From positions 1-64,000 of the forward strand of contig CALJES010000008.1 in assembly GCA_938074205.1 (NCBI GenBank): a DNA stretch of 64,000 nucleotides, read 5' to 3'. The position numbers and the translations under genes were made by a program. Source of the stretch: an uncultured bacterium. GTDB lineage: Bacteria > Armatimonadota > UBA5829. The first letter of the stretch is position 1, and the number at the start of each line of letters is the position of its first letter. This document shows, in pieces, positions 51,251 through 55,332 of the stretch. The notes under the pieces were generated by a model. That model did not search any database. It was given only the letters and a program-made list of their open reading frames with translations, and was not told where the DNA came from.

Positions 51251-51757
51251 TTGAAACGACTCCTGCTCCTACTTTTGTTGGGAATTACAGGGATGTTAAC
51301 TGCCGCAGAAGTTCCTCTTGTCCAAAAGCTGCTGCCGGCCGCTAATGCAGTCAAGGGATTCAAAACGGTGCCTGGGTCGTTGGTTTATGCCAAGGGCGAT
51401 GAGCTGTCGAAAATCTACGATGGCGGATACGAGCTTTATACAAAAAATGGGGTTATCGACGCGGCTCGTCAAATGTATGAGCGCGACAAGGACTACGTCG
51501 AAGTGACAGTGCACACAATGAAGTCTGAAAAGGCAGCGGCCGATTTCCTGAAGTACTGGCAAAAGGAAAACAACGTCAAGTCTGCGAGCAAATCCTCCGG
51601 AACCACTTTCTTTGTAGTCACAAAACCGAACGTAACCCTCTATTTTGTGAAACGTCAATACTTCGGTACCGTGTCTGCGTTCTACGCTCAGGATCGGGCG
51701 AAAAAAGATGTGACTATGTTCAGTGATGCTATCTCGAAGCTGATACCAAGTCGGTAA
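51251..51757 (+). CDS. Exported DUF6599-like protein
   Basis: A 168-residue exported protein with TTG start, about 6 nt after GGAGGG. The signal peptide is KRLLLLLLLGITGMLTAAE. The mature part has KTVPGSLVYAKGDELSKIYDGGYELYTKNGV and a DYVEVTVHTMKSEKAAADFL segment, which fit the DUF6599 pattern; this family is of unknown function and is often encoded next to DUF362 and polyferredoxin genes, as here. No cysteines or metal motifs are visible in the mature part. It is the first gene of a three-gene operon. Confidence 0.6.
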   Translation: MKRLLLLLLLGITGMLTAAEVPLVQKLLPAANAVKGFKTVPGSLVYAKGDELSKIYDGGYELYTKNGVIDAARQMYERDKDYVEVTVHTMKSEKAAADFLKYWQKENNVKSASKSSGTTFFVVTKPNVTLYFVKRQYFGTVSAFYAQDRAKKDVTMFSDAISKLIPSR

Positions 51758-51776
51758 TCTTTGTGAGGACGTTAAT

Positions 51777-52703
51777 ATGAAGATATTCAGCAGACGCGAA
51801 TTTTTGGAAGTTGTTGCCGCTTTAGGAGCATCTTTATTCGTCAGCGGGTGCAGCAAAAACGGTCAGGCAGGTCTTGGTGCATCCAAACCAAGAAAGCCAA
51901 AGCTGTCGGTGGATGGAATAGTTGTTGCCTCGGGAAAGGGCCCATCGAAGAATACGCAGGCAGCCATCGAAGCCATAGGCGGGATTGACAAGTTCGTAAG
52001 GAAGGGCGACTTCGTAGTTATAAAACCCAATATCGCTTGGAATCGGCCTCCTGAATCCGCAGCGACAACAAACCCCGAAGTGGTCGCGCAACTTGTGCAA
52101 CTATGTAAAGCCGCAGGAGCGGGCAGGGTTGTGGTGATGGATCACGTTATCGACAGACCTGCTGAAGCGGTGCTCGGTCTTACCGGTATTAGAGAAGCTG
52201 TGGAGAAAGCCGGCGGTGAAGTGAAAGCAGTTCAGCAGGAATCCGACTATCGCACCATCGAGATTCCGAAGGGAAAGCTGCTGACATCGGACACTCTGGC
52301 AAAGGACATCATTGAAGCGGACGTTTTCATAAACGTTCCTGTTGCCAAGACTCACTCCGCCACCAGGCTTACTCTAGGGCTTAAGAACTTGATGGGCTGC
52401 AATTGGGATCGACAGGCTTGGCATCAAAGTGCGTCGCTTGAACAATGCATAGCCGACTACGCAACCGCCGTACGGGCTGACCTGACAGTCCTAGACGCTA
52501 CCCGTATTCTGCTTACTAACGGACCAAAGGGACCTGGTCGGACCCGCGAAGTGGACAAAGTGATTGTCGGGACTGATCCGGTCGCAGTAGATGCGTACGG
52601 GGCGACGCTCTTCGGACTCAAACCTAAGGATGTAGCTCACATACTAATCGCGGCACAGATGGGTATTGGGAATATAAACCCGGCGGTTGCCAAGGCTGTG
52701 TAA
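51777..52703 (+). CDS. Tat-exported DUF362 lipoprotein
   Basis: A 308-residue protein. The N-terminus SRREFLEVVAALGASLFVSGC combines a twin-arginine motif (RREFL) with a lipobox (SGC, Cys22), so it is probably folded in the cytoplasm and anchored outside the inner membrane. The DUF362 domain begins with the segment FVVIKPNIAWNRPPE and has VAKTHSATRLTLGLKNLMG near residue 185. DUF362 proteins often bind a metal or act with 4Fe-4S proteins; this copy has almost no further Cys. Starts 19 bp after the preceding gene, and is followed by a quinol-type polyferredoxin. Confidence 0.85.
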   Translation: MKIFSRREFLEVVAALGASLFVSGCSKNGQAGLGASKPRKPKLSVDGIVVASGKGPSKNTQAAIEAIGGIDKFVRKGDFVVIKPNIAWNRPPESAATTNPEVVAQLVQLCKAAGAGRVVVMDHVIDRPAEAVLGLTGIREAVEKAGGEVKAVQQESDYRTIEIPKGKLLTSDTLAKDIIEADVFINVPVAKTHSATRLTLGLKNLMGCNWDRQAWHQSASLEQCIADYATAVRADLTVLDATRILLTNGPKGPGRTREVDKVIVGTDPVAVDAYGATLFGLKPKDVAHILIAAQMGIGNINPAVAKAV

Positions 52704-52715
52704 GGTGTGCCGCCG

Positions 52716-54341
52716 ATGAGCCAGCGAGTATCCCAGTTCGTCTCCATGAAATATCTGCGCCGATTGGTGCAGATTCTTTCACTAGTTACCTTCGTGTATT
52801 TGTTTCTCCTCACGGTCGGCCAATATGACCCGCTCACGAAACGCATAGCGCTGCTGTCGAAGGCCCCTGTGGACACTTACTTTCGGATCGACCCTCTGGC
52901 TGGGTTGACTGTGATGCTTTCAACTAGACAAATCGTGCCGGTGATGCTGATTTATGCACTGCCTGTGGTAGTGCTTACGGTGCTTGCGGGAAGGTTTTTT
53001 TGCGGGTGGATCTGCCCACTCGGCGTTTGCCTGGATATTGCCGACAAGGTATTCTTTAGAGGCGCCCAGCGGCCGCGCCGAGGAGGTACCGCAGATCGAA
53101 CTAAGACCAGGCAACTGAAGTATTATTTGCTGATCGTAATACTGAGCGCTTCTCTATTCGGCGGACAGATTGCATATTTAGCTGACCCGATAACCATCCT
53201 CACCCGCGCGTTTACGTTTGTACTGTTTCCGGTAGCGCAATTGGGGCTACGCTCGTTCAGTCAGTGGGATTTGATCGAACAAAGATTGAGCTTTTTAACT
53301 GCAAGCCTGTTGATTCCACGCGACGTTCAATATTTCTTCCGTCTGAACTTCCTATCCGCCTTGGTGCTTATTGTCGTCATTTCCCTGAACTCGATCTCGC
53401 GGCGCTACTGGTGTAGGAATCTTTGCCCGCTTGGTGCGCTGCTGGCCTTTGTTTCAAAAATATCTATGATAAGAAGGCAGGTCGGCGGCAGGTGCAACAG
53501 CTGCGCAAAATGCGTTTCAGAATGCAAGATGGGCGCAATTTATGATAACCCACGGGAGTATCAAGCTACGGAGTGCATATACTGCTATGACTGCACTCAG
53601 GTGTGTCCTACGCTAGCGACGAAAATCGTGCCTTCACTGCGGGCTGAGGGATATCGGTCGACTTTGAATCTTCGACGCAGACACGTGTTACAGGCTCTAG
53701 GTTCAGGGCTCTTGCTGGCTATTCTCGCGCGGACTAACGCAGCGGCAAAGACAAGTCGCACCGGAGGGGTCAAGACTTCCAGCGAGTTTCTGATTCGGCC
53801 GCCTGGGGCTTTGCCGGAGGAAGAATTCCTGAACAGGTGTATTCGCTGCAGCGAGTGTATGAAGGTTTGCCCAACCGGAGGGCTTCAGCCTGCCATTGCT
53901 GAGGCGGGTCTCGCAGGACTTTGGACTCCAGTTCTTATCCCCCGGTTGGGTGAATGCACACAAAACTGCAACCTGTGTTCGCAAGTATGTTCCTCACAGG
54001 CGATACAACCGTTCGAAATCTCCGAAAAGTCACACATCTACATTGGACGGGCCGTTATTGACAGGTCTCAATGCATAGCTTGGAACTCGGATCGCAAGTG
54101 TCTGGTTTGCGATGAGCACTGCTCGTACCACGCTATCTACTGGAAAGAAGTTGACGGAGTAAAACGGCCATTTGTTAATGAGTACAAGTGCGTCGGATGC
54201 GGGATATGTGAAAATGCATGCCCAATTCAACCCCATTCCGCGATAAGAGTTTATTCTTTCGGCGACAGGCGAAGCTGGACACGCGAACAACAAAAAGTCT
54301 TCTTCGAACTGGGGGCTAAAACTGAGCCGCCCAATCAGTGA
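52716..54341 (+). CDS. Membrane polyferredoxin, NapH-NapG-like fusion
   Basis: About 541 residues. ATG 52716 (8 nt after AGGTG) is preferred to GTG 52707. The N-terminal half is NapH/NosR-like: membrane helices, FFCGWICPLGVCLD near residue 95, RYWCRNLCPLGALL near 230, then two 4Fe-4S motifs (CNSCAKCVSEC, CIYCYDCTQVCP). An internal RRRHVLQALGSGLLLAIL segment near 325 looks like a Tat signal of NapG, and the rest holds four more cluster motifs, including CIRCSECMKVCP, CNLCSQVC and CVGCGICENACP. Six clusters in total are inferred. It probably moves electrons from quinol to the periplasm, likely to the DUF362 and DUF6599 partners. Confidence 0.85.
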   Translation: MSQRVSQFVSMKYLRRLVQILSLVTFVYLFLLTVGQYDPLTKRIALLSKAPVDTYFRIDPLAGLTVMLSTRQIVPVMLIYALPVVVLTVLAGRFFCGWICPLGVCLDIADKVFFRGAQRPRRGGTADRTKTRQLKYYLLIVILSASLFGGQIAYLADPITILTRAFTFVLFPVAQLGLRSFSQWDLIEQRLSFLTASLLIPRDVQYFFRLNFLSALVLIVVISLNSISRRYWCRNLCPLGALLAFVSKISMIRRQVGGRCNSCAKCVSECKMGAIYDNPREYQATECIYCYDCTQVCPTLATKIVPSLRAEGYRSTLNLRRRHVLQALGSGLLLAILARTNAAAKTSRTGGVKTSSEFLIRPPGALPEEEFLNRCIRCSECMKVCPTGGLQPAIAEAGLAGLWTPVLIPRLGECTQNCNLCSQVCSSQAIQPFEISEKSHIYIGRAVIDRSQCIAWNSDRKCLVCDEHCSYHAIYWKEVDGVKRPFVNEYKCVGCGICENACPIQPHSAIRVYSFGDRRSWTREQQKVFFELGAKTEPPNQ

Positions 54342-54387: not shown

Positions 54388-55332
54388 GTGAGTGAGTTTC
54401 TCGTTACCGGGGGAGCAGGATTCATTGGAAGCCATGTAGTCGAGCTACTGGTCAGCGAGGGCCATGACGTTCGGGTGTTCGATAACTTTTCCACAGGAAC
54501 GCTAGATAATCTTGCAACTGTAAAAAACGATATAGATGTGATTCGCGGCGATGTCAGGGACCTCGCGGCGTTGGAGTCAAGTACGAAAGGTGTCGACTAT
54601 GTGCTGCATTTGGCAGCGGAGGTGTCTGTAGTAAAGTCTCTCGAAGAACCTCAGTACGTAAACGAGGTCAACGTAACGGGGACGCTCAATGTCCTGATCG
54701 CTTCCAAGAAAAACTCTGTAAAGCGTGTAGTGATGTCCTCGTCATGTGCTATCTATGGCGACACTGGTAAGGTAAAGCAAAGCGAGGACACGATTCCTGC
54801 ACCGCTATCCCCATATGGTGCGTCGAAGATCGCCGGGGAATATTATATGTCGGTCTTTCACACAGTCTATAGTGTGGAAACGGTAAGACTTCGCTATTTC
54901 AACGTCTTCGGGCCGCGCCAGAATCCGGCCTCGCAATATGCGGCAGTAATACCTAAGTTCATCGACCGGATACTCAGAGGTCAGGACATTCACATATACG
55001 GTGATGGTGAGCAAACCCGCGACTTTGTATACGTGGAGAATGTCGCACGTGCCAATTATTTGGCTTGTAAGGCTGCCGGTGCAGTCGGAGGGGCTTTCAA
55101 CATAGCCAGTGAGAAAAGCATAACTGTTAACGAGCTTGCCCAACGCTTGGCAGCGCTGTCAAGCAAGGAAGTGCGAATAGTCCACGATCCTCCCATAGTC
55201 GGCGAGGTGCGGTATTCCCACAGCGATATATCGCGCGCAAGAAAAGTGCTGGGCTACGAACCGTTGGTGGGATTTGAGGAAGGTCTAAAGCGCACTTTTC
55301 AGTATTTCGCAGCCAAGGCCAGGCCGGTCTGA
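54388..55332 (+). CDS. NAD-dependent sugar epimerase/dehydratase (GalE-like)
   Basis: A 314-residue extended short-chain dehydrogenase. The NAD-binding motif GGAGFIGSHVVELL is at residues 7-20. The catalytic set is SSSCAIYG followed by PYGASK (Tyr-X3-Lys). Segments RYFNVFGPRQNP and QTRDFVYVENVA fit UDP-sugar 4-epimerases. It may make UDP-galactose or UDP-xylose type precursors for the surface polysaccharides encoded in this window. Start is GTG 54388 with GGAG 9 nt upstream. Its 3' end overlaps the convergent dipeptide epimerase gene by 48 bp. Confidence 0.88.
   Translation: MSEFLVTGGAGFIGSHVVELLVSEGHDVRVFDNFSTGTLDNLATVKNDIDVIRGDVRDLAALESSTKGVDYVLHLAAEVSVVKSLEEPQYVNEVNVTGTLNVLIASKKNSVKRVVMSSSCAIYGDTGKVKQSEDTIPAPLSPYGASKIAGEYYMSVFHTVYSVETVRLRYFNVFGPRQNPASQYAAVIPKFIDRILRGQDIHIYGDGEQTRDFVYVENVARANYLACKAAGAVGGAFNIASEKSITVNELAQRLAALSSKEVRIVHDPPIVGEVRYSHSDISRARKVLGYEPLVGFEEGLKRTFQYFAAKARPV

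Follow-up and report, generated by a model that had tools for sequence, protein, structure and literature searches.

A fused polyferredoxin and an exported DUF362 protein form a nearly inseparable pair that may connect the quinone pool with the outside of the cytoplasmic membrane

Which protein is served by a membrane polyferredoxin that carries an export signal in its own middle? The question is raised by three genes, here called A, B and C, at positions 51251-54341 of the window, by which we mean the whole 64,000-nucleotide stretch analysed here, taken from contig CALJES010000008.1 of an uncultured Armatimonadota bacterium (genome G000; 3.02 Mb, completeness 97.88%). The open reading frames (ORFs) sit where a sequence-only reading had placed them and are co-directional, with gaps of 19 bases between A and B and 3 bases between B and C:

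51251-51757, + strand: gene A, 168 amino acids, TTG start; exported DUF6599-like protein
51777-52703, + strand: gene B, 308 amino acids, ATG start; DUF362 protein, lipoprotein of the twin-arginine translocation (Tat) pathway, predicted LarA fold
52707-54341, + strand: gene C, 544 amino acids, GTG start (an in-frame ATG at 52716 is a possible alternative); fused polyferredoxin of the NapH-NapG type

B and C are nearly inseparable and form a near one-to-one pair. In a phylum sample of 201 genomes drawn from Armatimonadota, C was counted as present at E 1e-20 or better (85 genomes) and the B profile at E 1e-50 (86 genomes). Both genes were found in 80 genomes, C only in 5, B only in 6 and neither in 110, with a Fisher value of 4e-42 that is descriptive only, as the genomes are related. 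Within the window's own family, five genomes had both genes and ten had neither. Among the mismatches, the C-only genomes G094 and G191 hold truncated B pieces beside C, C-only G122 also holds a truncated B piece, and in the B-only genome G114 a piece of C lies directly behind B.

Gene order was compared in 134 loci, comprising 60 stretches (from 90 matches in the 85 genomes), the window, and named loci without duplicates (80 were taken of 551 confirmed, and 7 of the 80 were dropped as duplicates of sampled stretches). In 110 loci a same-strand DUF362 gene is found no more than 1.5 kb upstream of C, with a gap of at most 200 bases in 103; otherwise it lies downstream of C (6 loci), farther away (3) or nowhere in the stretch (15, among them L128, whose stretch starts at a contig end). 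Ten genomes with no DUF362 gene near C were tested: eight have such a twin-arginine DUF362 protein elsewhere, G122 has its truncated piece, and G200 has a DUF362 match at E 3.3e-81. The proposal that all three genes keep a conserved order thus holds for the linkage of B to C and fails for A. A DUF6599-like gene (E 1e-5, within 5 kb of C) is linked in just 35 of the 134 loci, a count reached from 38 listed after removal of three duplicate records. Its place varies (A-B-C, B-C-A-B' or C-A-B), the tree calls for 13 or more changes, and the three-gene unit was rejected as the core. Because A is linked in so few loci and in varying order, the conserved core is two genes, B and C, not three.

The polyferredoxin itself contains the following elements, all within one ORF:

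53001-53018, + strand: first CX3CP motif, C99-P104 (C99 and C103 in 134 of 134 aligned proteins)
53412-53429, + strand: second CX3CP motif, C236-P241 (C236 and C240 in 134 of 134)
53493-53606, + strand: two-cluster ferredoxin, C263-C300, expected on the cytoplasmic side by likeness to NapH
53673-53750, + strand: internal twin-arginine segment and Tat-type transmembrane helix, R323-K348, arranged as in the part of PMC5449189 that describes this class
53838-54221, + strand: NapG-like region with four [4Fe-4S] motifs, C378-C505, expected in the periplasm

The fusion of NapH-like and NapG-like halves around a Tat-like motif, first noticed from the sequence, is real: C is one ORF in 134 loci rather than two genes, which rules out a frameshift or assembly artefact. 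The NapH/MauN model TIGR02163 matches residues 16-172 (E 3.2e-27; 95.7 bits, not reaching the curated cut-off of 213.05) and the NapG model NF007012 matches residues 323-515 (E 4.2e-21; 75.3 bits, not reaching the curated cut-off of 269), while Pfam finds Fer4-type domains and no other kind. The internal segment RRRHVLQALGSG occupies residues 323-334. Across the 134 aligned proteins, which span many phyla, position 325 is always arginine, position 324 is arginine in 126 and lysine in 8, and 27 of the 28 motif cysteines are kept in at least 133 proteins, C273 being kept in 120. The Tat helix is less hydrophobic than the first transmembrane helix in 117 of 133 proteins (on the Kyte-Doolittle scale, not the dGapp of PMC5449189), and at least two lysines or arginines follow it in 121 of 133. 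The genome G000 holds one full-length match to C and two short weak ones; among the matches listed, the closest named records with this gene are metagenome-assembled genomes (MAGs) of Armatimonadota.

As its domains are those of NapH plus NapG, C could be a NapGH-type quinol dehydrogenase serving a periplasmic nitrate reductase. This explanation is scarcely credible: NapA was detected in none of the 201 genomes at E 1e-100, a threshold at which the Escherichia coli positive control was recovered and weaker relatives would escape. Because NapA is missing from all 201 at this threshold, the role of NapGH in nitrate respiration does not apply, and nitrate respiration through NapA was ruled out.

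The fusion and its internal Tat segment are already known. Tooke et al. 2017 (PMC5449189), in the sections that deal with these proteins, describe a class of polyferredoxins from several phyla as NapH-NapG fusions with dual Sec/Tat targeting, give low helix hydrophobicity together with positive charges as the mechanism of the Sec-to-Tat hand-over, and show by reporter fusions that export of the polyferredoxin of delta proteobacterium MLMS-1 (Q1NSB0) depends on Tat. The sequence-only reading had suggested that the fused conduit and its two partners may be an undescribed respiratory or maturation system; the conduit fits the present data, whereas the fusion and the internal signal were on record.

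The features of B that bear on its function are two:

51777-51851, + strand: signal read from the sequence, with RR at residues 6-7, a hydrophobic stretch and a lipobox ending at C25
52353-52424, + strand: DUF362 signature residues H193, K203 and H216, in the order of LarA H174, K184 and H200

The assignment of B as a Tat-lipoprotein of the DUF362 family was borne out by these residues and by Pfam (PF04015, E 3.4e-55; 187.7 bits, above the gathering cut-off of 24). Alignments used the 115 of 119 B proteins with at least 270 amino acids. In these full-length homologues R6 is present in 115 and R7 in 114, the pattern of RRx followed by hydrophobic residues in 112, and a lipobox in just 17.

The AlphaFold2 model of B (mean predicted local distance difference test score, pLDDT, 89) points to the fold of the lactate racemase LarA. 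Its top 18 Foldseek matches in the PDB are all LarA, malate racemase or LarA-like proteins, and VIA-align superimposes it on Isosphaera LarA over 209 residues (Z 19.3, root-mean-square deviation 2.7); an uncharacterised Thermotoga protein (4nar) ranks twelfth with Z 16.0, and the best clearly different fold reaches Z 5.7. B, with 308 residues, aligns to LarA residues 33-268 of 425, and the remainder of LarA is absent from it. According to the portion of PMC11770544 that covers this superfamily, H174 of LarA is catalytic, K184 binds the nickel-pincer nucleotide (NPN), H200 is a nickel ligand, and Pfam clan CL0471 joins DUF362 with DUF2088. As MAFFT scatters H216 (59 of 115 in one column), the signature was followed by pattern search: a histidine, nine residues, a lysine and, 11 to 14 residues on, a second histidine occur in 113 of the 115 proteins. 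The first spacing equals that of LarA, whereas the second is, throughout the family, shorter by 2-5 residues. A candidate counterpart of LarA R75 is R90, found in 99 of 115 proteins by pattern search rather than residue-level structural alignment. Pfam gives DUF362 alone for B at E 0.1 or better, with no match to Lar_N (PF09861). B shares the predicted fold of LarA and its chemistry may be related, but we do not class it among the LarA enzymes.

DUF362 proteins also occur in other settings. A second same-strand copy, a diverged Tat-type paralogue of about 330 amino acids, is present in 23 of the 119 DUF362-bearing loci (L040-L046, L049 and others). G000 has eight DUF362 matches; one of them, L202, has two ferredoxin motifs and no sign of a Tat signal.

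The LarA fold and the Lys/His/His signature raise the alternative that B is a true NPN racemase or epimerase, exported together with its cofactor, which C keeps in the active redox state. Consistent with this, LarC is found in 77 of 85 C-positive and 65 of 116 C-negative genomes (odds ratio 7.6). However, the odds ratio drops to 2.7 (p 0.03) once the 33 genomes of family f16 are removed, and LarC co-occurrence was not retained as support. Four C-positive genomes that are 95-99% complete (G000, G119, G162 and G190) lack any LarC match, and their LarB and LarE matches all fall under the cut-off, yet their B proteins keep the His/Lys/His signature. In G000 itself LarB, LarC and LarE are all without a match over the cut-off, which rules out NPN as an obligatory cofactor there. 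With B also covering just part of LarA, we regard this alternative as very unlikely. An assembly gap is a less likely cause of the missing Lar genes in the four genomes; four further LarC-negative, C-positive genomes are 55-80% complete and little informative. Since the same-genus genome G135 has LarC, LarB and LarE side by side (C152:952-3800), G000 has probably lost all three. Because the B-C pair persists in genomes without these genes, we think that the pocket of B in this organism holds something other than NPN.

LarC can also be split in two, one piece covering about positions 1-236 of the model and the other 234-375. The two lie far apart in G022, a genome of one contig (C1:3233253-3233969 and C1:656941-657399), and on different contigs in G007, G155 and G163.

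A different partner appears in Bacteroidota. Three of the 63 plasmid-collection records with a polyferredoxin match were examined, and in two of them the gene after a polyferredoxin with an internal RR segment encodes a twin-arginine aldo/keto reductase whose C-terminal domain is of the 4Fe-4S (Fer4) type. The third record shares its Parabacteroides strain with one of these two, and there the polyferredoxin lies behind a DUF362 gene that bears the signature. Four polyferredoxins cluster together with a FastTree local support of 100, in a part of the tree that carries a long-branch warning. Because reductase-paired and DUF362-paired polyferredoxins group in the tree, a change of partner between DUF362 and aldo/keto reductase within one lineage is suggested. 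The B-C pair is also present in Parabacteroides distasonis, where it is annotated in NZ_OY725750.1 and where gene deletion should be feasible. Two loci labelled as P. distasonis plasmids may be mislabelled chromosome contigs: L231 encodes FtsK, and L232 encodes tgt and an LptF/LptG permease. In 10 Armatimonadota loci the stretch 2 to 8 kb downstream of C holds a gene for a twin-arginine protein; the one of these ten that was scanned has an aldo/keto reductase match at E 2e-7, and the arrangement may be linkage without function.

Protein A was thought to be an exported DUF6599-like protein. A Sec-type signal peptide occupies about its first 20 residues, as read from the sequence, and the homologue at the same gene position in L077, joined by an iterated profile, matches DUF6599 at E 8e-41 (140.1 bits), although A itself scores 15.9 bits against PF20244, under the gathering cut-off of 27. 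Its predicted structure (pLDDT 92) resembles the extracellular domain of PknH (Z 15.1), TiME (12.9) and RseB (10.0). The two partners were initially described as being of unknown function; this is now sharpened by predicted folds, LarA-like for B and PknH/TiME/RseB-like for A. In one MAG, a single ORF of 825 amino acids (L121:5959-8433) encodes a polyferredoxin with a C-terminal DUF6599 domain (residues 548-736, E 7e-27), fused at the end that is expected in the periplasm. We infer that A is an optional periplasmic accessory subunit.

How, then, might the pair work? The most economical reading is a conduit that runs from menaquinol through C to the exported B, with A as an accessory. The NapH half of C would exchange electrons with menaquinol, by analogy to NapH itself; the NapG half, which would be exported by the Tat system as its MLMS-1 relative is, would reduce or re-oxidise B; B would then carry out a hydride- or electron-transfer reaction on an extracytoplasmic substrate, with H193, K203 and H216 forming the putative pocket; and A might assist in the periplasm where it is present. 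That the pair links the (mena)quinone pool to a Tat-exported enzyme by moving electrons through the cytoplasmic membrane is in our judgement an evenly balanced proposition. The genome G000 has a gene of the menaquinone-route family PF02621 (E 1e-50); at E 1e-20 it shows no match to haem-copper oxidases. Haem-copper oxidases occur in 39 of 85 C-positive and 81 of 116 C-negative genomes; without family f16 the anti-correlation has p 0.13, and it was not used.

The same proteins could instead act in maturation or repair: C and B would then not sustain a steady respiratory flux but feed electrons for loading or reactivating a cofactor in some other exported enzyme. NosR, CcoG and MauMN provide models for such roles, and the NosR and CcoG models match C, far under their cut-offs. 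Pfam annotation of eight neighbour-cluster examples gave a histidine kinase, a dUTPase, an amidase, a phosphoglycerate mutase, two aldo/keto reductases and two without a family; no reductase family recurs among them, as would suit a maturation role, but no client enzyme recurs nearby either. The single full-length copy of C in its own genome is likewise compatible with maturation, whereas the aldo/keto reductase partners, each with its own ferredoxin tail, look like enzymes. On balance maturation or repair appears fairly unlikely.

Electrons could also run the other way, B oxidising an extracytoplasmic substrate (a 2-hydroxy acid, for example) and C passing the electrons inward to the quinone pool. 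LarA chemistry begins with removal of a hydride from a 2-hydroxy acid, as set out in the mechanistic part of PMC11770544, and the discussion of PMC5449189 terms NapGH a quinol dehydrogenase, which would speak for the outward direction. We consider inward flow unlikely.

Several points weigh against an outward conduit from the quinone pool through C to a LarA-fold B. The co-occurrence test ignores shared ancestry, and exceptions are left (C only in G194 and G196; B only in G137, G142, G164, G172 and G189). The LarA resemblance of B rests on predicted structure: an hhalign comparison of DUF362 with LarA gave a probability of 0.4%, which is not significant, its short alignment pairing the same three residues; a search of PDB sequences with the DUF362 profile at E 1 did not retrieve LarA; and no conserved histidine corresponding to LarA H108 was seen in the B alignment. 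DUF362 paralogues that lack a Tat signal also carry the KxH-x9-K signature, which is thus not specific to the conduit partner. The link to quinones depends on analogy with NapH, and the aldo/keto reductase pairing comes from two of the three records examined, out of 63.

Around the three genes, an opposite-strand gene lies upstream and one further gene follows on the same strand:

54388-55332, + strand: NAD-dependent epimerase/dehydratase (sugar-nucleotide epimerase), starting 46 bases past C

This gene is possibly co-transcribed with A, B and C. It lies outside the conserved module; an epimerase/dehydratase neighbours C in 5 of the 134 loci, the window included. Many neighbour clusters on the opposite strand resemble shadow ORFs and were left aside. 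In eight loci with no DUF362 gene near C (L064, L065, L068, L069, L071, L091, L092 and L102), one gene family lies directly upstream of the polyferredoxin; its L071 example is a dUTPase by Pfam.

Searches of the open-licence PubMed Central (PMC) literature found neither the pairing of the polyferredoxin with DUF362, nor their co-occurrence, nor the persistence of the pair without NPN genes, and no mention of DUF6599; nor was the aldo/keto reductase alternative found there, under the spelling 'aldo keto reductase', which may miss the form with a stroke. New here are the B-C partnership, its occurrence also in hosts that lack nickel-pincer genes, and the aldo/keto reductase as an alternative partner. 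DUF362 remains a 'domain of unknown function' in Pfam. The near one-to-one pairing, the predicted LarA fold and signature, and the lack of the LarA cofactor pathway in some hosts together give testable grounds for proposing an extracytoplasmic redox system that has gone unrecognised. Because related Bacteroidota polyferredoxins pair with Tat-exported, ferredoxin-tailed aldo/keto reductases, a general rule is suggested in which these conduits serve exported hydride-transfer enzymes. A wider generalisation is tentative, and we hold it to be rather doubtful: polyferredoxins with an internal Tat segment would be a general membrane power supply, serving, in many phyla, DUF362 proteins of the LarA fold whose cofactor is not NPN and may be new, and, in Bacteroidota, aldo/keto reductases with a ferredoxin tail. 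If so, nicotinamide-type chemistry would be run outside the cytoplasm, wired to the quinone pool.

Four known systems can be set beside the pair. LarA, a lactate racemase that uses NPN, shares with B the predicted fold, the His/Lys/His order and the first spacing, whereas B has a twin-arginine signal, is shorter, lacks a Lar_N match and occurs without the genes of NPN biosynthesis. The quinol dehydrogenase NapGH shares its cluster motifs and expected topology with C, and differs in being two polypeptides where C is one. NosR, CcoG/RdxA/FixG and MauMN are membrane CX3CP ferredoxins tied to exported enzymes, as C may be to B; the ferredoxin type is common to all of them, and the partner genes differ. 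The closest likeness is to the polyferredoxin of Tooke et al., which, in the account of its architecture in PMC5449189, shares with C the NapH-NapG fusion, a twin-arginine motif before the fifth transmembrane helix, a weakly hydrophobic Tat helix and positive charges after that helix. That paper is concerned with assembly and treats the fused polyferredoxin as a targeting problem, its main text containing neither 'DUF362' nor 'operon'. To that picture the present analysis adds B as a partner, DUF6599 as an accessory and the aldo/keto reductase as an alternative.

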